From: Candidatus Velthaea versatilis
GTDB taxonomy: Bacteria; Vulcanimicrobiota; Vulcanimicrobiia; Vulcanimicrobiales; Vulcanimicrobiaceae
Reading direction: 5' to 3'
Length of the DNA: 37,451 bases
NCBI GenBank assembly: GCA_003134035.1
Contig: PLAE01000150.1
Location: 21,901 to 59,351 of the forward strand
Shown here: positions 22,456-35,543 of the stretch, piece after piece
Layout of the letters: every line of letters begins with the position of its first letter
How positions within the stretch are numbered: the stretch's first letter is position 1
Translations under genes and position numbers: made by a program
The notes under the pieces: model-generated
What the model was told of the DNA's origin: nothing
Seen by the model: only the letters and a program-made list of their open reading frames with translations
Databases searched by the model: none

Positions 22456-23457
22456 TTACACCCGCCGCCGAGACGTCGCGGCGAACAGATCGCGCAGCAG
22501 CCGGTCGCGGTCGAGATCGTAGCGCAAAGCAAGATCGTCGGCTTGTGCGATCGCGCGATCGCAGGCTTCGTCGGCGGCGGCCTGCGCGCCCAAACGGTCC
22601 AGCGCGGCGATGACGGCATCCGCGTCGGCCGCGCTCAACTCGCCGATCCGCTTGTACGCGCGTTCGATGATGAAGCGGTCGGCGGACGGTTTTCCATCGA
22701 GCGCCCAAACGACGGGAAACGACCACTTGCGGCGCCGGATGTCGGCCCCGCTGGGCTTGCCCGTTTCGGCCGTGGTACCCCAGGTACCTAAGACGTCGTC
22801 GCGGATTTGAAACGCCCGGCCGTACGCGCGGCCGAACGCCGCGTACGCCAGCGCCCGCTCGTCGCCGACGCCCGCCGAACGCGCCCCCAACTCGCAGGCG
22901 GCGGAAAATAACGCCGCGGTTTTGCCGGCGATCATGTGCAGGTAGTCGGCGAACGTGACGAACTGCGCGGTCTCGAACCCAATGTCGAGGCCCTGGCCTT
23001 CGCACATGTGGAAATTAGCCCGCTGCAGGCAGCGCTCCATCGCCACCCGGCGACCCGCCGGGATGTCGGCGGCGCCGGAAAACAGCGCGAGATAACTCAT
23101 CGCGCACATCGCGTTGCCGGCCACGATGGCGCTGGGCACGCCGAAGCGCACCCACAAGGTCGGCCGGCCATGCCGGATCTCGTCGCGGTCTTCGATGTCG
23201 TCGTGGATGAGCGAATAATTGTGCAGCAACTCGATCGCGATCGCTGAGCCGTCGGCGTCGCCCTGACGGGCGCCCTCGGTCTGCGCGACCATCAGCAGGA
23301 TGTGCGGGCGCAGCCGCTTGCCGCGGCGCCGTTCACCTTCGCCGTAGCCGAAATGCGCGCGCACCATCTGCGCGATGGGCGCGTCGCTTTCGCAGCGCAA
23401 GATCCACTCCTCGAGCCGATCCTCGAAGGCGGATAACGCGTCGGGCGCGAGCGTCAT
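22456..23457 (-). CDS. Isoprenyl diphosphate synthase (farnesyl/geranylgeranyl type)
   Basis: A 333-residue trans-isoprenyl diphosphate synthase that condenses IPP with an allylic diphosphate. The first aspartate-rich motif DDIED is at residues 86-90. The second begins DDVLG at 220, where the final D is G, a common variant. The substrate-binding KRLRP motif is at 47-51. It feeds the squalene synthase in this cluster, so FPP is the likely product; chain length cannot be fixed by eye. It is the last gene of the minus-strand run and starts directly against the hpnH stop with no spacer. Confidence 0.93.
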   Translation of the reverse strand: MTLAPDALSAFEDRLEEWILRCESDAPIAQMVRAHFGYGEGERRRGKRLRPHILLMVAQTEGARQGDADGSAIAIELLHNYSLIHDDIEDRDEIRHGRPTLWVRFGVPSAIVAGNAMCAMSYLALFSGAADIPAGRRVAMERCLQRANFHMCEGQGLDIGFETAQFVTFADYLHMIAGKTAALFSAACELGARSAGVGDERALAYAAFGRAYGRAFQIRDDVLGTWGTTAETGKPSGADIRRRKWSFPVVWALDGKPSADRFIIERAYKRIGELSAADADAVIAALDRLGAQAAADEACDRAIAQADDLALRYDLDRDRLLRDLFAATSRRRV

Positions 23458-24477
23458 CTACTTCGAAAGCACCGACTTGAACGAGTTGACGATGTTTTGC
23501 GGCCGCATCGAGTCGATGACGGCGGTCATCTCGTAACCGGAGTGCACCATGCAATCCGTACATTTCGGGTTGCCGCTCTTCTGACCATAGCTCGACCAAT
23601 CCGTGGTCTCGAGATACTCTTGCCACGTTTTGGCGTAGCCCTCACCGAGCAGATAGCACGGCTTCTGCCAGCCGAAGAGCGAGTAGGACGGCATGCCCCA
23701 CGGCGTGCAGTCGTAGTCTTTGTCGCCGATGAGAAACTCCATGAAGAGGGGGCTGGCGTTGAATTCCCACTTCGTCTTGCCGGCGTTGTACGGGAGCATG
23801 ATCTCGCGAAAGAGCGCCTTGGTTTGCTCGCGCTGCAGGAAGTGCTCCTGATCGGGCGCTTTTTCATACGGGTAGCCGGGCGAAATCATCATGCCGTCGA
23901 CTTTGAGTTCGTTCGTTGCGAAGTCGAAGAATTCTTGAACGCGCTTGGGGTCGGCGCCTTGGAAGATCGTCGTGTTGGTGGTGACCCGGAAGCCGCGCGC
24001 TTTGGCCGCTTTGATCGCCGACACGGCGATATCGAAAATGCCGCCGCGGTCGACCGCTTTGTCGTGCTCGTCTTTGAGACCGTCGAGATGAACGCTGAAC
24101 GAGAAATACGGCGAGGGCGTGAATTTGTCGAGACTGGCTTCCAACCGGATCGCGTTGGTGCACAGGTAGACGAATTTCTTGCGCTGCACCAGACCGCGCA
24201 CGATCTCATCGATCTGCGGATGCAGCAGCGGCTCGCCCCCGGGGATCGCCACGACTGGCGCCCCGCACTCTTCGGCGGCCCGGAAACATTCTTCGGGCGT
24301 GAGGTGCTTGCGCAGAATCTCGACCGGATGCTGGATTTTGCCGCAGCCGCCGCAAGCGAGATTGCACCGGAAGAGCGGCTCGAGCATGAGCACGAGCGGG
24401 AAGCGCTTTTTGCCGCGCACCCACTGGCCGATGAGATACGAGCCGACGCCGAATGCTTGCTGAAGAGAAATTGCCAT
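23458..24477 (-). CDS. hpnH: Adenosyl-hopene transferase HpnH
   Basis: A 339-residue radical SAM enzyme. The cluster ligands are C38, C42 and C45 ([10 protein letters not shown]), followed by HPVEIL and the SAM-binding [11 protein letters not shown]-terminal set of cysteines occurs in CTDCMVHSG. HpnH adds the 5'-deoxyadenosyl radical to diploptene to give adenosylhopane, the precursor of C35 hopanoids. The N-terminal [18 protein letters not shown] block is characteristic. ATG 24477 is used because the frame upstream lies in the hpnA 3' end. It sits between hpnA and the isoprenyl synthase on one transcript. Confidence 0.97.
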
Positions 24478-24484
24478 GCGTGGT

Positions 24485-25486
24485 TTACCGGTAGTCCTTT
24501 CGGGGCGCGTCGAGATAACCGTGTTCCAAAAACCAACCGACCGCATCGGATAAGGCGACGGTTACATCGCTCTGCGGCAGGCCCAGGTCACGAACCGCTT
24601 TTCGCGCGTCGTAATACATCCGCCCCTTGGCCATGCGCACGCTTTCGACTGCGACGTCGGGCGTGCGGCCCAGCGGTGCCAACACGTATTCCCCCAGCGC
24701 GGCGTAGGCCAGCGGAACAGCGACCGGCAGGCGCAAGCGAGGAACCGAGCGCTTCACGATCGGCGCCAACCGGGCGAAAATGTCGTGCAAACCCAAATTC
24801 TCATTCCCGAGAATGTAACGCTCGCCGGTTCGCCCGCGTTCGAAGGCGAGGCGATGGCCGGCCGCGCAATCGCGCACGTCGATGAGGTTGAGGCCCGTCT
24901 CGACGTACGCCGGCATCGCGCCGCGCGCGAAGCGCAGCACGATCTCGCCGGTCGGCGTCGGCTTGACGTCCCACGGACCGATCGGGGTGCTGGGGTTGAC
25001 GATCACGACGTCCTGGCCGGCGGCCGCCGCCTCGCGCGCAACCTGTTCGCCCAGAAACTTCGACTTTTTGTAGACCCCGACGAGCTTCTCGTACGGACTC
25101 TGGTAGCTCTCGTCGGCGCTCGCGCCGGCGCGCACGCCGATCGCGGCGACGGAACTGGTGTGAACGACGCGCGGCACCCCGGCCGTGCGCGCCGCATTGA
25201 GAACCGAACGGGTCCCATCGACGTTGGTCCGCAGCACCTCGGCGCGGTCGCGCCGCCACAGGCTGTACAGCGCCGCGACATGAAAGACGGCTTCGCAGCC
25301 GGCCATCGCCGCCGCCAGTTCGGGTTCAAAGAGATCGCCGGCAACTTCGTCGACCTCGAGGCCGGCCAAGGCCGGCGGCCGCGAGCGGCGCACCAGCGCG
25401 CGGACCCGCCAACCGTTGGCGAGCAGATCGCGCACCAGATTCGATCCGACGAAACCGGCCGCCCCGGTCACGAAGGCGGTTTTCAC
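24485..25486 (-). CDS. hpnA: Hopanoid-associated sugar epimerase-like protein HpnA
   Basis: A 333-residue extended SDR. The NAD(P) motif is TGAAGFVGS (7-15). The catalytic residues are S111/S112 and Y139-x3-K143 (YKKSK). HpnA is regularly found in hopanoid operons, but its reaction is not settled; it is named for similarity to nucleoside-sugar epimerases and dihydroflavonol reductases. The start is GTG 25486, which overlaps the stop of the RND gene (GTGA), and it is seven bases from hpnH. Confidence 0.93.
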
Positions 25487-27960
25487 GGCTTGCGATCAAC
25501 GAACGTGTAGGCGACCGGGATGACGACCAAGCTGAGGACGGTCGAGGAAATGAGGCCGCCGATGATCGCGATCGCCATCGGCGCGCGCAGTTCGGAGCCG
25601 GCCCCGAAGCCGACGGCGATCGGCAGCATGCCCAGGATGGTGGCCCCGGTGGTCATCACGATCGGCCGGAACCGGCGCGACCCGGCTTCGAGGATCGCCG
25701 TCGCGCGCTCCATCCCAGCGCGGCGCCGCTGCACGATCGCGTCGACGAGCAAAATTGCGTTCTTGTTGACGAGGCCGAACAAGAAGATCACGCCCATGAG
25801 CGAGATCAGCCCGAATTCGGCGTGAACCAAGAAGAGCGCAAACACCGCGCCGACGACCGAGAGCGGCAGGGCCACGACGATCACCAGCGGCGCGCGCCAG
25901 CCGCGGAAGAGCAGCCCGAGCACCGCGATGATGCTCAGCGTCGAGAGCCCCAGCGTCACCCCGAAGCTCCCGAAGGTCGTGATCGTGTCGCCCGCTTCCC
26001 CGGCGAACACGTACTGGGCGCTCTTGGGCAGGATCGCTCGCGCGATCGCGTTGACGCGCGCCGTCGCGTCGCCGATGTTCACGCCGACGAGATCCGCATC
26101 GACGTCGACGACCCGTTTACCGTCCTCGCGGGTGATGAGCGCCGGCCGGCCGCCGGCAAACTCCAGGCCGCCGGTGCTGACGTCGACGAACCCCTTCTGG
26201 CTGCTCATGCGCCGCGCCAGCAGCGCCGACGCCCGCGCCAGCACCGGGAGCTGCTGATCCGACACCGTGACACGCAGGGGTTTCGCCACGCCGTTCTCCA
26301 CGAACGGCACGTCCTCGACGCTGGTCGTCGCGTTCGCTAGCGTGGGCAGCGCGGCGCGCACCCGGTTCTCGACCACGATCGTCGGCGCGCGGCGGTTGTG
26401 GCGCAGCGTGACCGCCAGCGTGGCGAGCGCCGCATCGCCGCGGTCGCCGACGGCGGCCAGCACGGTGCTGACGTCGGGATCGCGCCGAATGACCGTCCAG
26501 AGCGTCTGCGCGTCGTCGATCGCATCGCGCACCGGCATCGACCCCGGGTTGTTGAGCCGGATCGTGATCTGGAACTGGCCGCGGTCGAGGTGCGGGATGA
26601 AGCCTTTGGGGATGAGCGGGATGATCGCTAGACCAACGAGGAAGCTCACGATGGCACCGCTGACGACGATCCCGCGGTGACCCAGCGACCAGCGCAGCGC
26701 GGCCGCGTAGAGCCGCGGCGCGGTCCACTGGCGGGCGTTCTTCGCGGCCGGCCGCAGCAGATAGGCGGCCAGCATCGGGGAGAGCGTGCGCGCGACCGCC
26801 AGCGACGTGAGCACCGCGACCGAGGCCGTCAAACCGAAGGGCCGGAAGAATTGCCCCAGCGTGCCGGTCATGAACGCGATCGGCAAAAAGACCGCGACCA
26901 CGGTGAACGACGCGCCGGTCACGGTCAACCCGATTTCGTCGGTCGCGCGCTCGGCGGCGACGCGCGGCGGCTCGCCGCTCTGGATGTGCCGCTCGATGTT
27001 CTCGACGTCGACGATCGCATCGTCGACGATCACGCCCGTCACCAGCGTGAGGGCCAAGAGCGTGATCGTCTCGAGGTTGAAACGAAACACCGCCATGGCG
27101 ATCGCGGTGCCGGCCAGCGAGACCGGGATCGCGATGGCCGAGATGAACGTCGCGCGCAGGTCGCGCAGAAACGGGAAAACCACCAGCACCGACAGCGCCA
27201 TCGCGATGCCCAGCGCATCGGTCGTGGCGTGCGAGGCTTCGCGGATGTACGGCGCCTGGGTGGCGGCGATCCGCAGCGGGACGCCCAGCAGCGCGCGCAC
27301 GCGTGCCGCCACGACGTCGACCGCGGCGGCGACCTCGAGCGTGTTGGCGCCGCCTTTTTTGACGATCCGGATCATGATCGCCCGCTGGCCGTTGAGGCGC
27401 ACCGCCGTGCTCTTGTCGGCCCCGATCAAGTCGGCGCGCAACACGCCGGGAACCGCCTCGAACGCCGGCACCGCCTCGCGAAACAGCACCCCGGCGTCGG
27501 CCAGAAGCTGCATTTCGTCATCGTTGGACTCGGCGTAGGTCGCGACCGGGTTCGCGTTGATATCGATCGAGGTGGCTTTGATCTTCGCGCCCGGCGGGAC
27601 GGGCCCGCGGGCCAGCAACGCGTCGACGGCGGCGCGCCGCGCTTCGAGCGTCCCGCCGACCGCGAACGAGAGCGCGATCGAGGTGGTTCCGGCTTTGGTC
27701 GTCGAGCGCGTCAAGGTCGATCCAGCCGGGGCTAGGAGCCGCTCGAGCGGGATCGTCAGCCGCGCCTCGGTGGTGGTCGTGTCGAGCTTGCCGCCGACGC
27801 TGGCATCGACGACGATGAGCGGAATCGAGAAGTCGGGCAGCAGCGTGTACTTGAGCGACGCGAACGCGAAGCCGCCGACCACGACGATGATCAGCCAAAC
27901 GGCCGCGGTAAGGAACGCGAATCGAATCGCAATTCGCGATATGTTGTAGCGCGATTGCAC
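25483..27960 (-). CDS. Shortened RND-family transporter lacking docking subdomains
   Basis: An 825-residue proton-driven RND pump of AcrB/HAE type with the usual twelve-helix order. TM1 is at 12-36, a porter region at 40-245 and TM2-TM6 at about 248-440. The proton-relay pair is D313-D314 in IVDDAIVDVENIER, and the TM10 lysine is K733 in VNKNAILLVD. AcrB has the same residues at 407/408 and 940 in 1049. The spacing shows that about 94 residues are missing before the DD pair and about 113 between it and the lysine. These losses match the size and place of the two docking subdomains that contact TolC. It lies in the hopanoid operon, GTG start, between squalene synthase and hpnA. Hopanoid export is inferred by place only. 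Confidence 0.88.
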   Translation of the reverse strand: MQSRYNISRIAIRFAFLTAAVWLIIVVVGGFAFASLKYTLLPDFSIPLIVVDASVGGKLDTTTTEARLTIPLERLLAPAGSTLTRSTTKAGTTSIALSFAVGGTLEARRAAVDALLARGPVPPGAKIKATSIDINANPVATYAESNDDEMQLLADAGVLFREAVPAFEAVPGVLRADLIGADKSTAVRLNGQRAIMIRIVKKGGANTLEVAAAVDVVAARVRALLGVPLRIAATQAPYIREASHATTDALGIAMALSVLVVFPFLRDLRATFISAIAIPVSLAGTAIAMAVFRFNLETITLLALTLVTGVIVDDAIVDVENIERHIQSGEPPRVAAERATDEIGLTVTGASFTVVAVFLPIAFMTGTLGQFFRPFGLTASVAVLTSLAVARTLSPMLAAYLLRPAAKNARQWTAPRLYAAALRWSLGHRGIVVSGAIVSFLVGLAIIPLIPKGFIPHLDRGQFQITIRLNNPGSMPVRDAIDDAQTLWTVIRRDPDVSTVLAAVGDRGDAALATLAVTLRHNRRAPTIVVENRVRAALPTLANATTSVEDVPFVENGVAKPLRVTVSDQQLPVLARASALLARRMSSQKGFVDVSTGGLEFAGGRPALITREDGKRVVDVDADLVGVNIGDATARVNAIARAILPKSAQYVFAGEAGDTITTFGSFGVTLGLSTLSIIAVLGLLFRGWRAPLVIVVALPLSVVGAVFALFLVHAEFGLISLMGVIFLFGLVNKNAILLVDAIVQRRRAGMERATAILEAGSRRFRPIVMTTGATILGMLPIAVGFGAGSELRAPMAIAIIGGLISSTVLSLVVIPVAYTFVDRKP

Positions 27961-28033: not shown

Positions 28034-29071
28034 TCACGACTGACCGACGAACACGAAGGGGCGGCTGCGAACGCGTTCCATCAGCCAGCGCAGCGTGGTA
28101 TTGCTCAACGTCGTCGTGGTGCCGGCCAGGATCAGCGCGTTCACCTCGCTGCGCGTGATCTTCACGCCGCCGCCGGGAACGAGCATTTGCTCGCTGTGCT
28201 TGAGTTCGCGCAGCGTCGCCGCCGCGAAGACCGTGGGCAGCACGCAAAACAGACGGATGCGCATTGCCGCCGGCGGAATTTCGCTCACGTATTCGAGCGC
28301 GCAGTCGAGGTCGGCTTCGGCCAGCGAAACGAGGGTTTGGAGTGCGGTTCGATTGTTGGGGCGCAGCGCCGGGTCGAGCAGCGCGGCCTGGCTGCTGCCG
28401 GCGGATTCGAGCAGGTCGCGCGGAATGAACACGGCGTTTTCGCGCTCGACGTCCCAGGGGATGTCTTTGAGGATGTTGACGGTCTGCAGCGCTTCGCCGA
28501 AATTTTCGCACGTCCCCAACAGCTTAGCGTACGTGCGCGAACGGATGAACGGTGAATGCGCGTGCCACAGATCGGTCAGCAGATGCCCGACGGTGCCGGC
28601 CACAAAATAGCAGTACCGCCGGAACTCCGCCAAGCTCTGGATGCGGATGCCGTCCGGATACATGCGCACGAACTCTTGCATTCCGGTGCTCATCTCGCTG
28701 ACCCATTCCCGGATGATGCCGCGCGACGCCGGATCGAGCGCGCGATACGCCCGAAACACGAGCGGACTGCCGTCGACGAGCTCGCGGTCGGCGGCGCTCA
28801 TTCCGGCGCCGCCGGCATCGTCGGCATACCGGTCCGCGGCCTCAACGCTCGTGAAACAGGCCGCGAACTGATTCAAAAGCGCCAGCTTGCGCTCGGGCGC
28901 CAAACTTCGGTCGTCCTCGATGGTATCGGCGATCCGGCACAGTAAATAGCCGATCGTTATGGGATCCTCGAGCGTCCGGGGCAAGAGCCGGATGCCCAAG
29001 GCGAAGGTCCGCGAGACGCGCGGCAACATCGCGGTACAAAACCGATTTTCGTTAACGACCGTTCCCACCAC
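28034..29071 (-). CDS. Squalene synthase (single-enzyme type, squalene/phytoene synthase family)
   Basis: A 345-residue trans head-to-head prenyl synthase. The first aspartate-rich motif is D49-T-I-E-D-D. The second region is the VNILKD203-IPWD207 stretch. The YCYFVAGTVGHLL segment (153-165) and the FALGIRLLP N-terminus are closer to eukaryote-like squalene synthase than to HpnC or HpnD. It would convert two FPP to squalene through presqualene diphosphate in one enzyme; a phytoene synthase role is the alternative. The start is GTG 29071; ATG 29029 would delete the conserved N-terminal part. It heads the minus-strand hopanoid run. Confidence 0.85.
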   Translation of the reverse strand: MVGTVVNENRFCTAMLPRVSRTFALGIRLLPRTLEDPITIGYLLCRIADTIEDDRSLAPERKLALLNQFAACFTSVEAADRYADDAGGAGMSAADRELVDGSPLVFRAYRALDPASRGIIREWVSEMSTGMQEFVRMYPDGIRIQSLAEFRRYCYFVAGTVGHLLTDLWHAHSPFIRSRTYAKLLGTCENFGEALQTVNILKDIPWDVERENAVFIPRDLLESAGSSQAALLDPALRPNNRTALQTLVSLAEADLDCALEYVSEIPPAAMRIRLFCVLPTVFAAATLRELKHSEQMLVPGGGVKITRSEVNALILAGTTTTLSNTTLRWLMERVRSRPFVFVGQS

Positions 29072-29161: not shown

Positions 29162-30046
29162 ATGAAAGTCGGATCACCCGAACATCGCGATCTCTTTTGC
29201 AGCGCGTTCATCGCCGGATATCGCGCCTACGAACCCGAGCAGCTGGCTTGGCCGATTGTCGAGCCGAAGTATCTTGAGCGCTTGCGCGCGATCCCGTTCT
29301 GGGGCGTCGCAAAAGCAATGGAGCGCAAGGCTGGGATCATGGTTACCGCGTTTGGCAAGACGCTCGAAGACCCCGTCATTCGCGAAGCGGTCCTGCTGCA
29401 GGGCGCCGAGGAGACGCGGCATGCGCGGCTCATTACGTACTTCATCGACCGCTACGGCCTGCCGGCGCGACAGATCGACACGCCCGACCTGCTGCCGGCG
29501 CGCAAAGAGGATTTCGTGGTCTTCGGCTACGAGGAATGCGTCGATTTCTTCATGGGCGCGTGGCTCTTCCGGCTCGCGTCGCAACTCGACGTGTTCCCCG
29601 CCGATCTGGTGTCGATTTTCGAGCACATCATCTTCGAGGAAGCCCGCCACGTCACGTTCTTCATCAACTGGTTCCGTTACGAAGAAGCGCGCGCGGGCCG
29701 CGACGGTGTCGTTTCGCGCCATCTGGTCGCGCTCAAAAATTACGCGCGTTCGATCAAACAGCTGGTGCGTTCATTCGCCGGCGAGGAGACGACGGGGTTT
29801 GCCGCCGTCAATGCGAAGGACCTCATCGAGGGGATGACGCCGATGATGTTTTTAGAAGCGGCGCTGGCCGAGAACCGGCTGCTGTTGGGACGGCTCGATC
29901 GCCGGCTGCTCAAACCGTCGTTACTGCCCGGGCTCGCGCTGACGATGTTGACCGCCCTGCGCGCGCTACCGCCGCGCCCCGTCGCGACCGAACGTGCCGT
30001 GCCCGACAACTCCCGCAGGTCATTGGATTCCAGCATTGCCGCATAA
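29162..30046 (+). CDS. Di-iron ferritin-like protein in the hopanoid cluster
   Basis: A 294-residue helical protein. It has two E-x-x-H motifs spaced as in ferritin-like di-iron enzymes: E84-T-R-H87 (GAEETRHARL) and E160-A-R-H163 (FEEARHVTFFINW). Extra carboxylates lie in Y-E124-E125-C-V and F-E154-H-I-I. This is the four-helix ligand pattern of ferritin-like oxidases and oxygenases. No signal peptide or clear transmembrane helix is visible, though a hydrophobic patch lies around 268-285. It is divergent from squalene synthase (90 bases between) and followed by the HpnP-like gene. A role in hopanoid oxidation or desaturation is a guess based on place. Confidence 0.78.
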   Translation: MKVGSPEHRDLFCSAFIAGYRAYEPEQLAWPIVEPKYLERLRAIPFWGVAKAMERKAGIMVTAFGKTLEDPVIREAVLLQGAEETRHARLITYFIDRYGLPARQIDTPDLLPARKEDFVVFGYEECVDFFMGAWLFRLASQLDVFPADLVSIFEHIIFEEARHVTFFINWFRYEEARAGRDGVVSRHLVALKNYARSIKQLVRSFAGEETTGFAAVNAKDLIEGMTPMMFLEAALAENRLLLGRLDRRLLKPSLLPGLALTMLTALRALPPRPVATERAVPDNSRRSLDSSIAA

Positions 30047-30154: not shown

Positions 30155-31717
30155 ATGCCGCTCACGCCGCGCCGGGTCCTCTGCGTTTTCCCGCGCTACA
30201 GTCCGTCGTTCGGGACGTTCGAATATGCGTATCCGATCGCCGGGGTCAGCGGCTTCATGCCGCCCCAAGGCCTGCTCGTCATCGCCGCATCGATGCCCAA
30301 ATACTGGTCGGTCCGCTTCATCGACGAGAATATCCGCCCCGCGACGCGCGGCGACATGGCGTGGGCCGAATGCGTCTTCGTGAGCGGGATGCACATCCAG
30401 CGCGCGCAGATCGACGACATCACGCGGCGCGCGCACGCCGCGGGCAAAACCGTCGTGATCGGCGGCCCGTCGGTATCGGCCGCGCCCGAATATTATCCCA
30501 ACGTCGACATCCTGCACGTCGGCGAACTCGGTGACGCCACCTGGGCGCTGTACGCGCACCTCGAAAACGACGTCAGCCGGCCAGCCCGGCAATTGCGCTT
30601 CGAGACCGTCGAGAAGTTGCCGCTCGATCAGTTTCCGACGCCCGCGTATCAGCTCATCGATCTGCGCGACTATCTGCTGGGCAGCGTGCAGGCCACCAGC
30701 GGCTGTCCGTACCGCTGCGAATTCTGCGATATCCCCGAATTGTACGGTCAAAACCCGCGCCTGAAAACGCCCGACCAAATCGTGCGCGAACTCGACGCGA
30801 TGCTCGCGCGCGGCAACCCCGGCTCGATTTATTTCGTCGACGACAACTTCGTGGGAAATCGCAAGTTCGCCAAAGACCTGCTGCCCAAACTCGTCGCTTG
30901 GCAAAAAGAGCGCGGGTATCCCGTCGAATTCGCCTGCGAAGCGACGCTCAACATCGTCAAGAGCCCCGACTTGCTCGAGCTGATGCGCGAGGCGTACTTC
31001 ACGACGATCTTCTGCGGAATCGAAACGCCTGAGCTCGAGACGCTGCACGCGATCTCCAAAGATCAAAATCGCGGCATCGGACTTTTGGAGTCCGTGCGGA
31101 CGCTCAATTCCTATGGACTTGAAGTCGTCAGCGGGATGATCATCGGCTTCGATACCGATTCGCCCGCGACACCCGACCGCATGATCGACTTCATCGAGCA
31201 ATCGAAGATCCCGCTGCTAACGATCAACTTGCTGCAGGCGCTGCCGCGCACGCCGCTCTGGCGGCGGCTCGAAAAAGAAGGCCGGCTCTATCACGGCGAC
31301 GACCGCGAAACCAACATCGAATACGCGCTGCCGTATGACGACGTCATCGCGATGTGGCGCAAAACGATCGCCGCCGCCTACGAACCCGACGCGCTCTACG
31401 AACGCTTCCGGCATTTCGCCGACTACACGTTCCGCCGGCGCATCACGCCGCCCAACAGCGGCGCGCGCGTCAACCCGCGCAACATCCTGCGCGGTCTGTC
31501 GATCTTGTTCAAGGTCCTCACGCTGGTGGGGATCCAATCGAGTTACCGCCGAACATTTTGGAAGTTGTGCGGTCCGATGCTGCGCCAAGGCCGCATCGAG
31601 CCGTTGTTGCACATCGGCATCGTCGGCCACCATCTCATCACGTACGCGCGCGGCGCGCTCGCGGGCCAATTCAACGCCTCGCACTACGCCACGCGAACCC
31701 GCAAGCGGGCCGCCTAG
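30155..31717 (+). CDS. hpnP: B12-binding radical SAM protein, hopanoid C-2 methylase HpnP-like
   Basis: A 520-residue class B radical SAM methylase. The N-terminal 160 residues match a cobalamin-binding domain with the PRYSPSFGTFEYAYP and FIDENIRPA (55-63) blocks known in HpnP. The radical SAM cluster ligands are C184, C188 and C191 (SGCPYRCEFCDIP). The C-terminal 180 residues resemble the DUF4070-like end of HpnP. HpnP methylates hopanoids at C-2. Close paralogues with other roles exist, so phylogeny is needed to be sure. ATG 30155 is preferred to TTG 30152. It converges on the squalene-hopene cyclase gene with shared stop bases (CTAG). Confidence 0.82.
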   Translation: MPLTPRRVLCVFPRYSPSFGTFEYAYPIAGVSGFMPPQGLLVIAASMPKYWSVRFIDENIRPATRGDMAWAECVFVSGMHIQRAQIDDITRRAHAAGKTVVIGGPSVSAAPEYYPNVDILHVGELGDATWALYAHLENDVSRPARQLRFETVEKLPLDQFPTPAYQLIDLRDYLLGSVQATSGCPYRCEFCDIPELYGQNPRLKTPDQIVRELDAMLARGNPGSIYFVDDNFVGNRKFAKDLLPKLVAWQKERGYPVEFACEATLNIVKSPDLLELMREAYFTTIFCGIETPELETLHAISKDQNRGIGLLESVRTLNSYGLEVVSGMIIGFDTDSPATPDRMIDFIEQSKIPLLTINLLQALPRTPLWRRLEKEGRLYHGDDRETNIEYALPYDDVIAMWRKTIAAAYEPDALYERFRHFADYTFRRRITPPNSGARVNPRNILRGLSILFKVLTLVGIQSSYRRTFWKLCGPMLRQGRIEPLLHIGIVGHHLITYARGALAGQFNASHYATRTRKRAA

Positions 31718-33717
31718 TGGATTGGGCTTCGCCCAATCCTGGCGAGGTCCGCGTACCGGCCCAACGCCGTTAGCGGGAAATGCTGGCAATACAGGTGATA
31801 GCGGAGATAGAAGTGCTGGGGGAAGCCGGTCCCGGTGAATTCGGCTTCATCCCAGGTTCCGTCCGGCCGCTGCTCGGCGAGCAGAAACGCCACGCCGCGC
31901 TCGATCGAGCGCGCGAAGTCGGCGTGCAGACGCGGTAGGCGTTCGACCGCAGCCAGCAGGCCGATGAGCGCCCAGGCCGTTTGAGAGGGCGTGCTCGCGC
32001 CTTTGCCGCGCAGCACGGGGTGCTTGTAGCTGGCCGTCGTTTCGCCCCAGCCGCCGTCGGCGTTCTGCACGCTGCGCAGCCACACGACACCGCGCACGAT
32101 CGCCGCATCGACGGCGGCACCGCCCGGAGTCTGGGCCAGCGCGGCGAGTGCGCCGCTGGTGCCGTACACATAGTTTACGCCCCACCGGCCGAACCACGCG
32201 CCGTCGGGTTCCTGTTCGGCCAGCAGAAACGCCAGCGCGCGCGCAAAGCGTTCGGCGTCAAGGTGCAAACCGCAGCGGCCGAACATTTCAAGTACGCGCG
32301 CGGTCACGTCGGCGCTGGGCGGATCGATGCTGGCTTTGAGATCGCTATACGCGATCTGATTGATCCACGCTTTGTCGTTGTCGATGTCGAAGGCGCCCCA
32401 ACCGCCGCCGCGACACTGCATCGTCGTCACCCACTGCGCGGCGCGCTTGACAACCGCGCGAACGCGGGCCGGTCGCGGATGGCGGACGGCGTGTAGCGCC
32501 ATCGCGACGACCGCCGTATCGTCGACGTCGGGATACCAGCGATTGTCGAACTCGAAGGCCCAGCCACCCGGCGGTCCGGCCGGATTCTTGACCTTCCAAT
32601 CACCGTAATCGAGGATCTGCTTTTCGATCAGCCAGTCGGCGGCCCGAATCAGGCGCGGGTCATCCGCGCGGACGCCGGCATCGACGAGCGCCCGTACCGC
32701 CAGACCCGTGTCCCACACCGGCGAGATGCACGGCTGCACGCGATACGCGCCGTCGGCGGTTATCGTGAACTTGTCGATGGCCGCGAAACCGCGCACCACT
32801 TCGGGATCGTCGACCCCATACCCCAACGCGCGCAGCGCGAGCATCGAGTTGAGCATCGCGGGGATGATGCCGCCCCAGTCGCCCGTGGCCTCCTGGCGCT
32901 CGAGCACCCAGCGCTCCGCAAGCGCGATCCCGCGCGCGCGCCCGGGCACGAAGCCCCGCCGCTCGCCGGCTTTGAACACGCCGTCGAGACCGTTGAAGAA
33001 CGCTTCGACCGAGGTTTTCGCCGCCGGCAGCGCGCACGCCGCGTTGCCGGCGCCTTCAGCGTAGAGTTCGCCCAGATCGACCGTGGGACCGTATACAGGT
33101 TTGCGGTCGAACACGATGATGAGCGGCACCGTGCTGCCGCGCGCCCAACTCGACAGGTCGTAGATCGAAAACGGTCCGCGCTGGGGCAGCAGCATCAAGA
33201 ACGGCGGCAGCGCGGGCAAACCAGGCCAGCCGTACGCGCCGACGAGCGCGAGGTGCAGTTTCGTGAAGATCCGCGTCTTCGAGATACCGCCCCGCTCCAC
33301 GATGAACGTGCGCGCCCGCACGAGCGCGGGATCGTCGCGATCGACGCCCAAGAAGCGCAGCGCAAGATACGCCTCGACGCTAACGCTGAGTTCGCCGCCG
33401 TCGCCGTAGGCCAGTTCCCAACCGCCGTGATCGCGCTGCTCGCCGCGGAAATAGCGTTCAGCCGCGGCCCGCGGCACCCGCTCGAACGTGCCCCAAATAT
33501 GGTGCAGCAGGAGCACTTCGGCGGTGATGGTGACGTTGGATTGCAATTCCGCCCACCAATATCCGTCCGGATGCTGCGTAGCGAACAGGGCGTCGGCCGC
33601 GCGCGCGATCGCGTCGCCGAGCGCCGGCGCGGACGGCGCGGCGAGGGGTTGCGCCGACGGTAAATCCGAAGCGGGCGGAATGTCCTCGAAGCTAGTGCGG
33701 ATCGTTTCGCTGCTCAT
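31714..33717 (-). CDS. shc: Squalene-hopene cyclase
   Basis: A 667-residue cyclase, normal length for the family. The catalytic acid motif DVDDTA is at residues 397-402, with the SPVWDTG block before it (332-338). QW repeats are visible throughout, such as QHPDGYWWAE, QEATGDWGG, QNADGGWGE and QRPDGTWDE. It converts squalene to hopene or hopanol at the membrane surface. ATG 33717 is the only reasonable start. The stop shares bases with the convergent HpnP-like gene. At its 5' end it overlaps the likely start of divergent hpnB, so each promoter must lie within the other's coding region. Confidence 0.98.
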   Translation of the reverse strand: MSSETIRTSFEDIPPASDLPSAQPLAAPSAPALGDAIARAADALFATQHPDGYWWAELQSNVTITAEVLLLHHIWGTFERVPRAAAERYFRGEQRDHGGWELAYGDGGELSVSVEAYLALRFLGVDRDDPALVRARTFIVERGGISKTRIFTKLHLALVGAYGWPGLPALPPFLMLLPQRGPFSIYDLSSWARGSTVPLIIVFDRKPVYGPTVDLGELYAEGAGNAACALPAAKTSVEAFFNGLDGVFKAGERRGFVPGRARGIALAERWVLERQEATGDWGGIIPAMLNSMLALRALGYGVDDPEVVRGFAAIDKFTITADGAYRVQPCISPVWDTGLAVRALVDAGVRADDPRLIRAADWLIEKQILDYGDWKVKNPAGPPGGWAFEFDNRWYPDVDDTAVVAMALHAVRHPRPARVRAVVKRAAQWVTTMQCRGGGWGAFDIDNDKAWINQIAYSDLKASIDPPSADVTARVLEMFGRCGLHLDAERFARALAFLLAEQEPDGAWFGRWGVNYVYGTSGALAALAQTPGGAAVDAAIVRGVVWLRSVQNADGGWGETTASYKHPVLRGKGASTPSQTAWALIGLLAAVERLPRLHADFARSIERGVAFLLAEQRPDGTWDEAEFTGTGFPQHFYLRYHLYCQHFPLTALGRYADLARIGRSPIH

Positions 33718-34912
33718 GGTCGGCGGATGGACGGGATTACTCGTAGCACGCGGACGGTTTTGGGATCCGCCCGCCGACCGCCTTCGCGCGACGGGCGACG
33801 GCGCGGACGCACCCGAGGTTCACGTGATTGTGCCGGCGCGCAACGAGGCCGCCGTGCTGCCCGCAACCTTGCCCGCGCTGCTCGCACAACGCTATGCCGG
33901 CGCGCTGCGCGTCACGCTGGTCGACGACGATAGCGACGACGGAACGGCGGCCCGCGCACATTGGCTGGCAACGGAGTGCGGCGCTGCGAACATGTTCTGC
34001 GTGACGGCGGTGCCGCCGCGGCCGCCGGGTTGGGCCGGGAAGGTCTGGGCGATGGCCGCCGGCGTTGCCGCGGCCCGACGCTCCGGCGCGCGACCGGCCT
34101 ACTGGCTGTTCACCGACGCCGATATCGCCCACGATCCCGATGTCGTTGCGGCTCTCGTCGCAACCGCGCGCGCCGACCAGCGCGACGTCGTGTCGCTCAT
34201 GGTGCAGTTGCGCTGCGTCTCGGGCTGGGAACGGCTGCTGATCCCGGCCTTCGTCTTTTTCTTCGCCAAGCTCTATCCGTTCGGCTGGGTCGCCGACGAC
34301 CGCCGGGCGACGGCGGCCGCGGCCGGCGGATGCGTCCTGATCTCCGATCGCATGCTGCGCGCAATCGGCGGCTTCGAGCGCATCGCCGGCGCGCTCATCG
34401 ACGATTGCTCGCTCGCGGCCGCCGTCAAAGCCGACGGCGGCCGCTTGCGGCTCGAACTCACCAGCCGCGCGCGCAGCGTGCGGGCTTACGATTCGCTCGA
34501 CGCGATCTGGCAGATGGTCGCGCGCAGCGCCTACACCCAACTGCGCGAGTCGCCGCTGCTCCTGACGGGGACGGTTGCCGCCATGGTGCTGCTCTACATG
34601 CTGCCGCCGCTGGCCGCGGTCGCCGGGCTGCTGCGGCGCGACCGCTCGCTTACCGCCGGCGGGGCGGCGGCCTGGTCCGTGATGTCCGCCATGTACGTTC
34701 CGATGCTGCGCCGCTACGATCAGCCGATCGCGGCGGCACCGCTGCTGCCGCTTGCCGCGGCACTGTACACCGCGATGACGCTCGACTCCGCACGCCGGCA
34801 CTGGGCGGGTCGCGGCGGCGCTTGGAAAGGCCGCGTGCGGGATCGGCCGCCCGCAGTGTCGCAGCCGCACGGCGCGCTCAACGGACAGCCGCCCGTCAGT
34901 CACCCCCGCTGA
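33680..34912 (+). CDS. hpnB: Hopanoid-associated glycosyltransferase HpnB
   Basis: A membrane-bound family 2 glycosyltransferase of about 410 residues. A short hydrophobic N-terminus (VRIVSLLMVGGWTGLLVARG) is followed by VHVIVPARNEAAVLP, the metal and nucleotide motif VDDDSDDGT and the donor-binding LFTDADIAHDPD. A C-terminal membrane part has LLLTGTVAAMVLLYMLPPL. ATG 33680 or GTG 33695 gives a full membrane helix; ATG 33716 would cut it. The first overlaps the cyclase start on the other strand by 38 bases. It overlaps hpnG at its 3' end by 17 bases, convergent. The sugar and acceptor are not known from sequence. Confidence 0.9.
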   Translation: MSSKLVRIVSLLMVGGWTGLLVARGRFWDPPADRLRATGDGADAPEVHVIVPARNEAAVLPATLPALLAQRYAGALRVTLVDDDSDDGTAARAHWLATECGAANMFCVTAVPPRPPGWAGKVWAMAAGVAAARRSGARPAYWLFTDADIAHDPDVVAALVATARADQRDVVSLMVQLRCVSGWERLLIPAFVFFFAKLYPFGWVADDRRATAAAAGGCVLISDRMLRAIGGFERIAGALIDDCSLAAAVKADGGRLRLELTSRARSVRAYDSLDAIWQMVARSAYTQLRESPLLLTGTVAAMVLLYMLPPLAAVAGLLRRDRSLTAGGAAAWSVMSAMYVPMLRRYDQPIAAAPLLPLAAALYTAMTLDSARRHWAGRGGAWKGRVRDRPPAVSQPHGALNGQPPVSHPR

Positions 34913-35543
34913 GTGCGAGCCGCGCGGCCGTAACGCGCAACGCGCGCAGTGCTTGCAGTGCATGCGCGACGAAGCGCGCGCTGCGCCGGGGCGCACGCGC
35001 GAAAGCAAAGGCCAGGACCGCCGGCCGCAGCGCGCCGCGGGCGTCGTAGACATGGTTCAGATTGGGCAACTCGGTAGCGGCGTCGTCGCTCACGACGCGC
35101 ACCATCGCGACGCGCACGCCGCGCCGGGCCAGAGTGCCGGCGATCGCGGCACCCTCCATGTCGACGACCGCCGCGCCGGTCGCGGCCCGCAACGCGGCTT
35201 TGCCGGCGACCGCGCCGATGAAGCGCGCGACGTTCGCCGCGTTGCACGGCGCGCGATCGCACGCGACGGCACATGCCCCGGTCATTTCCGCATCGAGCTC
35301 GAAGCGATCGTCCCCGTCGATGACGCGGTCGTAGACGACCGTGTCACCCACCCGCAGCAGCGGATCGAGCGCTCCGCACAAACCCAGGACGAGCGCCGTC
35401 GGCGCGACCGGTCCGCGCTCGAGCACGTCGCCGGCGGCGCTGCCCGCCGGAACGCTCAGCACGAGCGGCCGGGGCGCAGGCCAACCAGCCTCGACCGCGC
35501 GCGTCTCCGCCCCGCGCGGCACGACGATTGCATCGAAGCGCAC
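34896..35543 (-). CDS. hpnG: Hopanoid-associated nucleoside phosphorylase HpnG
   Basis: A 215-residue protein of the MTA/SAH nucleosidase and purine phosphorylase fold. The glycine motif is VLGLCGALDPLLRVGDTV. The catalytic/base-binding part is GAAVVDMEGAAIAG (residues about 119-132) with VVSDDA after it. HpnG removes adenine from adenosylhopane to give ribosylhopane, following HpnH. The start is GTG 35543 with modest upstream purines. Tail-to-tail overlap with hpnB is 17 bases. It completes the core C35 side-chain steps seen here (HpnH, HpnG). Confidence 0.9.
   Translation of the reverse strand: MRFDAIVVPRGAETRAVEAGWPAPRPLVLSVPAGSAAGDVLERGPVAPTALVLGLCGALDPLLRVGDTVVYDRVIDGDDRFELDAEMTGACAVACDRAPCNAANVARFIGAVAGKAALRAATGAAVVDMEGAAIAGTLARRGVRVAMVRVVSDDAATELPNLNHVYDARGALRPAVLAFAFARAPRRSARFVAHALQALRALRVTAARLALSGGD

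Follow-up and report, generated by a model that had tools for sequence, protein, structure and literature searches.

The window analysed here, a stretch of 37,451 nucleotides from Candidatus Velthaea versatilis, carries a cluster of hopanoid genes. Within this cluster lies an open reading frame of 294 amino acids that begins with ATG, fits positions 29162–30046 of the forward strand exactly, and is scored as coding by a gene caller based on codon position. Divergent from it is a gene of the squalene/phytoene synthase family (28034–29071, reverse strand; PF00494, 1.8e-55), a squalene synthase of the one-protein type (SQS) whose best NCBIfam match is TIGR01559, yet below the cut-off of that model. 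On the other side, 108 bp downstream and on the same strand, is a gene for a B12-binding radical SAM protein with a DUF4070 domain (30155–31717; Pfam), followed by squalene-hopene cyclase (SHC; 31714–33717, reverse strand; TIGR01507, 845 bits against a cut-off of 431), the glycosyltransferase HpnB (33680–34912, forward strand; TIGR03469, 492.6 bits against 379), and an HpnG-like phosphorylase (34896–35543, reverse strand; TIGR03468, 76.6 bits, below the cut-off of 187). Beyond the squalene synthase, all on the reverse strand, are an AcrB-type RND transporter (25483–27960; PF00873, 1.9e-142), HpnA (24485–25486; TIGR03466, 422 bits, above cut-off), the adenosylhopane synthase HpnH (23458–24546; TIGR03470, 520 bits, above cut-off), and a polyprenyl diphosphate synthase (22456–23457; PF00348, 2.1e-53). 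An earlier note on this DNA had placed the 294-residue protein between hopanoid genes, and the squalene synthase and SHC on its two sides, along with HpnB, HpnA, and HpnH, bear this out.

Some details of the cluster deserve mention. The label "HpnP-like" for the radical SAM gene is plausible, given its DUF4070 domain and its relatives. Relatives with 52–58% identity occur in five alphaproteobacterial genomes, and a further one, 58% identical, sits beside hpn genes in a cyanobacterium (locus L062). For the polyprenyl synthase, the best model is that of a family-2 encapsulin cargo polyprenyl transferase, at 238 bits and below the cut-off of 450. A further open reading frame at 33737–35053 (reverse strand) was rejected as a gene, being antisense to hpnB.

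Judging from its sequence and predicted fold, the 294-residue protein belongs to the ferritin-like di-iron superfamily, with a four-helix core, two E-x-x-H motifs, and two additional carboxylates. The motifs read E84-T-R-H87 (29411–29422) and E160-A-R-H163 (29639–29650), and E54 in the first metal helix (codon 29321–29323) and E125 (codon 29534–29536) complete a four-Glu/two-His set; a full set of di-iron ligands had been proposed earlier from the motifs and extra carboxylates. In an alignment of 70 related proteins, C13, W30, W47, E54, E83, E84, H87, E125, D128, E160, and H163 are invariant, as is W170, which is far beyond what chance would produce. An AlphaFold2 model built on the family alignment, from which four plasmid rows were left out, is all-helical (pLDDT 90.8, pTM 0.87) and places one set of metal ligands on each of four long helices, at residues 47–65, 71–98, 115–141, and 147–177. 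The model also contains a hydrophobic C-terminal helix (residues 254–268, positions 29921–29965; mean Kyte-Doolittle +1.48) that could possibly serve as a membrane-docking element.

Known families resemble the protein only remotely. Against Pfam and NCBIfam, the window protein matched no model above cut-off; the best Pfam hints were Rubrerythrin, DUF455, and AurF, with E-values of 0.02–0.09 (15.4 bits against a gathering threshold of 22.8 for Rubrerythrin, PF02915, and 12.4 against 29.6 for AurF, PF11583). Sequence searches of the PDB, with the single window protein and with profiles, returned nothing significant. The best profile match among solved structures was MiaE, the tRNA ms2i6A hydroxylase (5ux1, residues 54–175, E 0.03, not significant). 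This di-iron enzyme hydroxylates an isoprenoid side chain, but its substrate and gene context are different. Weak profile similarity to AcsF, the Mg-protoporphyrin IX monomethyl ester oxidative cyclase, was seen in 29 of the 70 members (best 9.3e-6); AcsF, too, is a di-iron oxygenase whose target is a carbon of a side chain, but the window protein scores 11 bits against its cut-off of 391, and other genes surround AcsF. By structure, Foldseek placed R2lox and the R2 protein of class I ribonucleotide reductase nearest among solved folds, with TM values of up to 0.54 and a probability of ~1. Both also carry a di-iron site on a four-helix core, but the E-values are 0.007 or more and the identities 10–15%. 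No NCBIfam R2lox model scored above cut-off (matches in 2 of the 70 members, at best 0.037), and the spacing of the metal ligands in R2lox presumably differs as well. The weak profile similarities, to AcsF, MiaE, AurF, and COQ7, are mostly to di-iron oxygenases; like R2/R2lox, these are di-iron proteins that activate oxygen, and several of them hydroxylate carbon. Unactivated carbon is hydroxylated by known di-iron oxygenases, including methane monooxygenase and AlkB.

Relatives of the window protein were gathered from related genomes, plasmid records, and a scan of species genomes that yielded at least 568 confirmed places, of which the best 80 were kept; these best 80 come from cyanobacteria, Alphaproteobacteria, Burkholderiales, and Eremiobacterota (a name used here for Vulcanimicrobiota). 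A maximum-likelihood tree divides the family, here called FERR, into two subfamilies by a fully supported split, for which the names FERR1 and FERR2 were coined in this analysis. FERR1 includes the proteins of Burkholderia, Cupriavidus, and many Alphaproteobacteria, whereas FERR2 comprises alphaproteobacterial, cyanobacterial, and Eremiobacterota proteins, among them that of the window; the cyanobacterial genomes sampled contain only FERR2-type genes. At three loci, FERR1 and FERR2 are fused in one open reading frame of about 580 amino acids adjoining hpnL (L106:9098-10840, L112:4215-5954, and L119:9101-10840). The gene had been described as no standard hpn member, and indeed no hpn model in NCBIfam covers FERR and no named hpn gene is a ferritin-like di-iron protein, even though HpnA to HpnR have operons and genomes in common with it. 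As judged on the open-licence literature, the hopanoid pathway gains in FERR a di-iron family that is new and as yet without a name.

FERR genes sit in the hpn clusters of unrelated phyla, and in this broad sense they qualify as an hpn family. In Alphaproteobacteria the two FERR genes are either fused or stand in tandem within the hpn operon, and many loci there read hpnI-hpnJ-hpnK-FERR1-FERR2-hpnL-hpnA-hpnB-hpnC-hpnD-hpnE-shc-hpnG, with the neighbouring HpnI, HpnJ, HpnK, and HpnL confirmed above NCBIfam cut-offs. Cyanobacterial arrangements include hpnJ-FERR-hpnK, as well as hpnH-hpnA-RND facing FERR-hpnG; in Cupriavidus metallidurans, FERR precedes hpnB, with hpnA, ispH, and hpnH nearby. Eremiobacterota FERR genes face either SQS/SHC or an idi-hpnC-hpnD-hpnE-shc-hpnH cluster. 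Two routes to squalene seem to be present in this phylum, the one-protein squalene synthase in the clade of the window and HpnC/D/E in others, and FERR accompanies both (28034–29071 in the window; L045, L043, and L040). Hopanoid genes are present at 45 of the 52 named loci whose sequence spans at least 15 kb. This outcome favours the earlier note, which had named homologues scattered away from such genes as refuting its reading. Some FERR genes do lie far from hpn genes, and this counts against their product being a side-chain hydroxylase.

The association extends to whole genomes. HpnH or SHC was found in all 70 FERR-bearing genomes of the three lineages sampled, in two of them by SHC fragments. 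FERR occurs in 23 of 289 Alphaproteobacteria, and HpnH in all 23 (78 of 289 overall); in 27 of 145 cyanobacteria, with HpnH in all 27 (73 of 145 overall); and in 20 of 60 relatives from the Eremiobacterota phylum, where SHC is present in all 20, two as contig-end fragments (30 of 60 overall), and HpnH in 18. Fisher tests gave p-values of 5e-15, 8e-10, and 1e-8, respectively, values that kinship among the genomes makes too optimistic; the co-occurrence nonetheless repeats in three phyla. Gammaproteobacteria, with FERR in 3 of 232 genomes, offered too few to use. Membership of the window gene's family in the hopanoid pathway is almost certain, and the counts mark FERR as a tailoring function that hopanoid producers may have or lack.

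The same pattern bears on the suggestion, already raised as an alternative in the earlier note, that FERR might be an iron-storage, rubrerythrin-like, or oxygen-defence protein clustered by chance with hopanoid genes. Rubrerythrins and ferritins share an ExxH-type di-iron motif on helices with FERR, Pfam returns a weak Rubrerythrin resemblance (best 2.6e-4, in one member), and there are weak encapsulin-ferritin matches. FERR differs from these proteins in showing no rubredoxin domain and in being longer, with extra C-terminal helices. Moreover, a protein with a general role in iron handling or stress would not be expected to track hopanoid genes in every one of the 70 FERR-bearing genomes from three lineages, and tandem and fused paralogues within hpn operons, with an R2/R2lox-like fold, better fit an enzyme. 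Its strict tie to hopanoid genes, as well as the remote resemblance to oxygenases, speaks against both iron storage and oxygen defence, and a chance clustering of this kind is extremely unlikely.

Another conceivable role would be in the formation of the cyclitol-ether or glucosamine head group together with HpnI, HpnJ, and HpnK. FERR often adjoins hpnJ and hpnK, and HpnH-bearing Alphaproteobacteria show a mild association between FERR and HpnJ (p=0.03), 11 genomes having both, 12 FERR only, and 12 HpnJ only when HpnJ matches are taken at E<=1e-100. Co-occurrence is thus far from obligate, with 12 of 23 FERR-bearing Alphaproteobacteria devoid of HpnJ and 12 of 23 HpnJ-bearing ones devoid of FERR. 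Enhydrobacter aerosaccus, too, carries FERR while lacking HpnJ. Being dissociable from HpnJ, FERR is not a cyclitol-ether enzyme, and a role in head-group formation appears very unlikely.

Lipid phenotypes offer a further line of evidence. A 2025 survey of 54 alphaproteobacterial strains stated that the genes for bacteriohopanepentol (BHpentol), bacteriohopanehexol (BHhexol), and the ring double bonds were unknown, and recognised no candidate for BHpentol/BHhexol near hpn clusters (PMC12583986). About 18 of its strains produce pentol or hexol, among them Nitrospirillum, Sphingomonas mali, Komagataeibacter, and Acetobacter, whereas Methylobacterium, Rhodopseudomonas, Bradyrhizobium, Rhodospirillum rubrum, and Tistlia stand at 0%. 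In E. aerosaccus (L094/G060), the hpn island is bounded by FERR2 on one side and FERR1 on the other, and BHpentol and BHhexol amount to 77%, the second highest share in the survey's table (PMC12583986). Burkholderia cenocepacia carries FERR1, and strains of this species show BHpentol cyclitol ether (PMC8560942). FERR presence and BHpentol/BHhexol production agree in these two, the only named organisms that join genotype to phenotype, although for B. cenocepacia the genome and the lipids come from different strains. BHpentol is also among the most frequently reported BHPs of cyanobacteria, and the 30,32,33,34,35-pentol has been reported solely from cyanobacteria (PMC5642901). Rhizomicrobium palustre, with 1% pentol and hexol (PMC12583986), may be an exception to the link, as it perhaps belongs to the FERR-common order around genome G063.

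The earlier note had envisaged an oxygenase or desaturase acting on squalene or hopanoids. Its placement in hopanoid metabolism stands, while squalene and ring desaturation are not favoured over side-chain hydroxylation. A ring desaturase making the delta-6 or delta-11 double bonds would be in keeping with the occurrence of desaturases among di-iron enzymes, with ACP desaturase among the Foldseek matches of the model, and with the presence of both pentol and delta-6 lipids in the FERR1 carrier B. cenocepacia (PMC8560942). In E. aerosaccus, though, which has both FERR types, unsaturated BHPDs make up 1% against the far larger pentol and hexol share, and by lipid data alone Nitrospirillum and Sphingomonas spp. 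reach 44–90% pentol and hexol with 0–1% unsaturated (PMC12583986). Ring desaturation is accordingly quite unlikely.

Somewhat less remote, though still unlikely, is action on squalene or C30 hopene, or oxidation of ribosylhopane or BHT to an oxo intermediate. FERR adjoins SQS and SHC in the clade of the window, and a 32-oxo intermediate has been proposed as an alternative route to pentols by the survey authors, who doubted that direct hydroxylation is possible (PMC12583986). Against that doubt stands the hydroxylation of unactivated carbon by di-iron oxygenases mentioned above. Two Eremiobacterota loci have a pair of neighbouring short-chain dehydrogenase genes immediately after FERR (L036:1875-4362 and L042:10054-12512), an arrangement that would also suit such a route; it suggests further oxidation of the new hydroxyl. 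Against an early substrate stands the presence of HpnH in every FERR-bearing alphaproteobacterium and cyanobacterium, though a C30 substrate stays compatible with this pattern. Taken as a whole, the evidence points to a side-chain hydroxylation after HpnH rather than to a reaction on squalene or a desaturation of the rings.

The reading preferred here is that the window gene encodes a candidate di-iron monooxygenase that probably hydroxylates the BHP side chain, at C-30 or C-31. The conserved ligand set, the fold, the operon membership, the co-occurrence with HpnH/SHC, and the dissociation from HpnJ were all computed; for the oxygen chemistry, the substrate, and the position we infer the following. 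A diferrous site formed by E54, E84, H87, E125, E160, and H163 would activate O2 and insert a hydroxyl into a CH2 of the side chain that adjoins the tetrol. The substrate would be the C5-extended (bacteriohopanepolyol) side chain, and the products lipids of the bacteriohopanepentol or hexol type. On present evidence, FERR2, the type found in the window, would more likely act at C-30 and FERR1 at C-31, and both enzymes together would give the hexol.

In the order around G063, FERR is present in 41 of 64 genomes; FERR2 always occurs with FERR1 (19 of 19), and FERR1 is alone in about 20, as expected if FERR2 carries out a second, later hydroxylation. Two successive side-chain hydroxylations are the simplest reading of the phenotypes and of this nesting. 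That FERR1 and FERR2 are regiospecific C-31 and C-30 hydroxylases, jointly explaining BHpentol, BHhexol, and the cyanobacterial 30,32,33,34,35-pentol, is a more tentative proposal, with the chances somewhat against it.

Few bacterial biomarkers are used as much in geology as hopanoids and their fossils, and BHpentols, BHhexols, and some cyanobacteria-specific pentols serve as source markers although the genes behind them are not known. The enzyme that attaches additional hydroxyls to the hopanoid side chain has long been sought. FERR, widespread and located in the hopanoid clusters of several phyla, is a good candidate, and a di-iron family within hpn clusters opens the question of which genes make these lipids to a direct test. 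If the regiospecific proposal is true, the missing genes for these biomarkers would be supplied, and the Eremiobacterota of the window would be predicted C-30 hydroxylators. If O2 is the oxidant of FERR, as it is for di-iron oxygenases, polyhydroxylation of the side chain would also become a candidate oxygen marker.

A few observations from the genome comparison remain. The HpnP-like gene was tried as a proxy for Hyphomicrobiales and gave five strong matches, three of them in FERR-bearing genomes, which is too sparse to interpret. "Rhizobiales bacterium dw_265" was rejected as a Hyphomicrobiales anchor; its order has only 64 searchable genomes and is therefore not the true Rhizobiales. Partial FERR matches in three HpnH-bearing cyanobacteria (G366, G370, and G429) are possibly decaying genes or assembly breaks. 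Finally, in one Eremiobacterota clade (L030, L032, L037, and L038), FERR is located away from hpn genes, beside a hydantoinase-like pair and a membrane glycosyltransferase-like gene, and SHC is still present in these genomes (in G007 by fragments).
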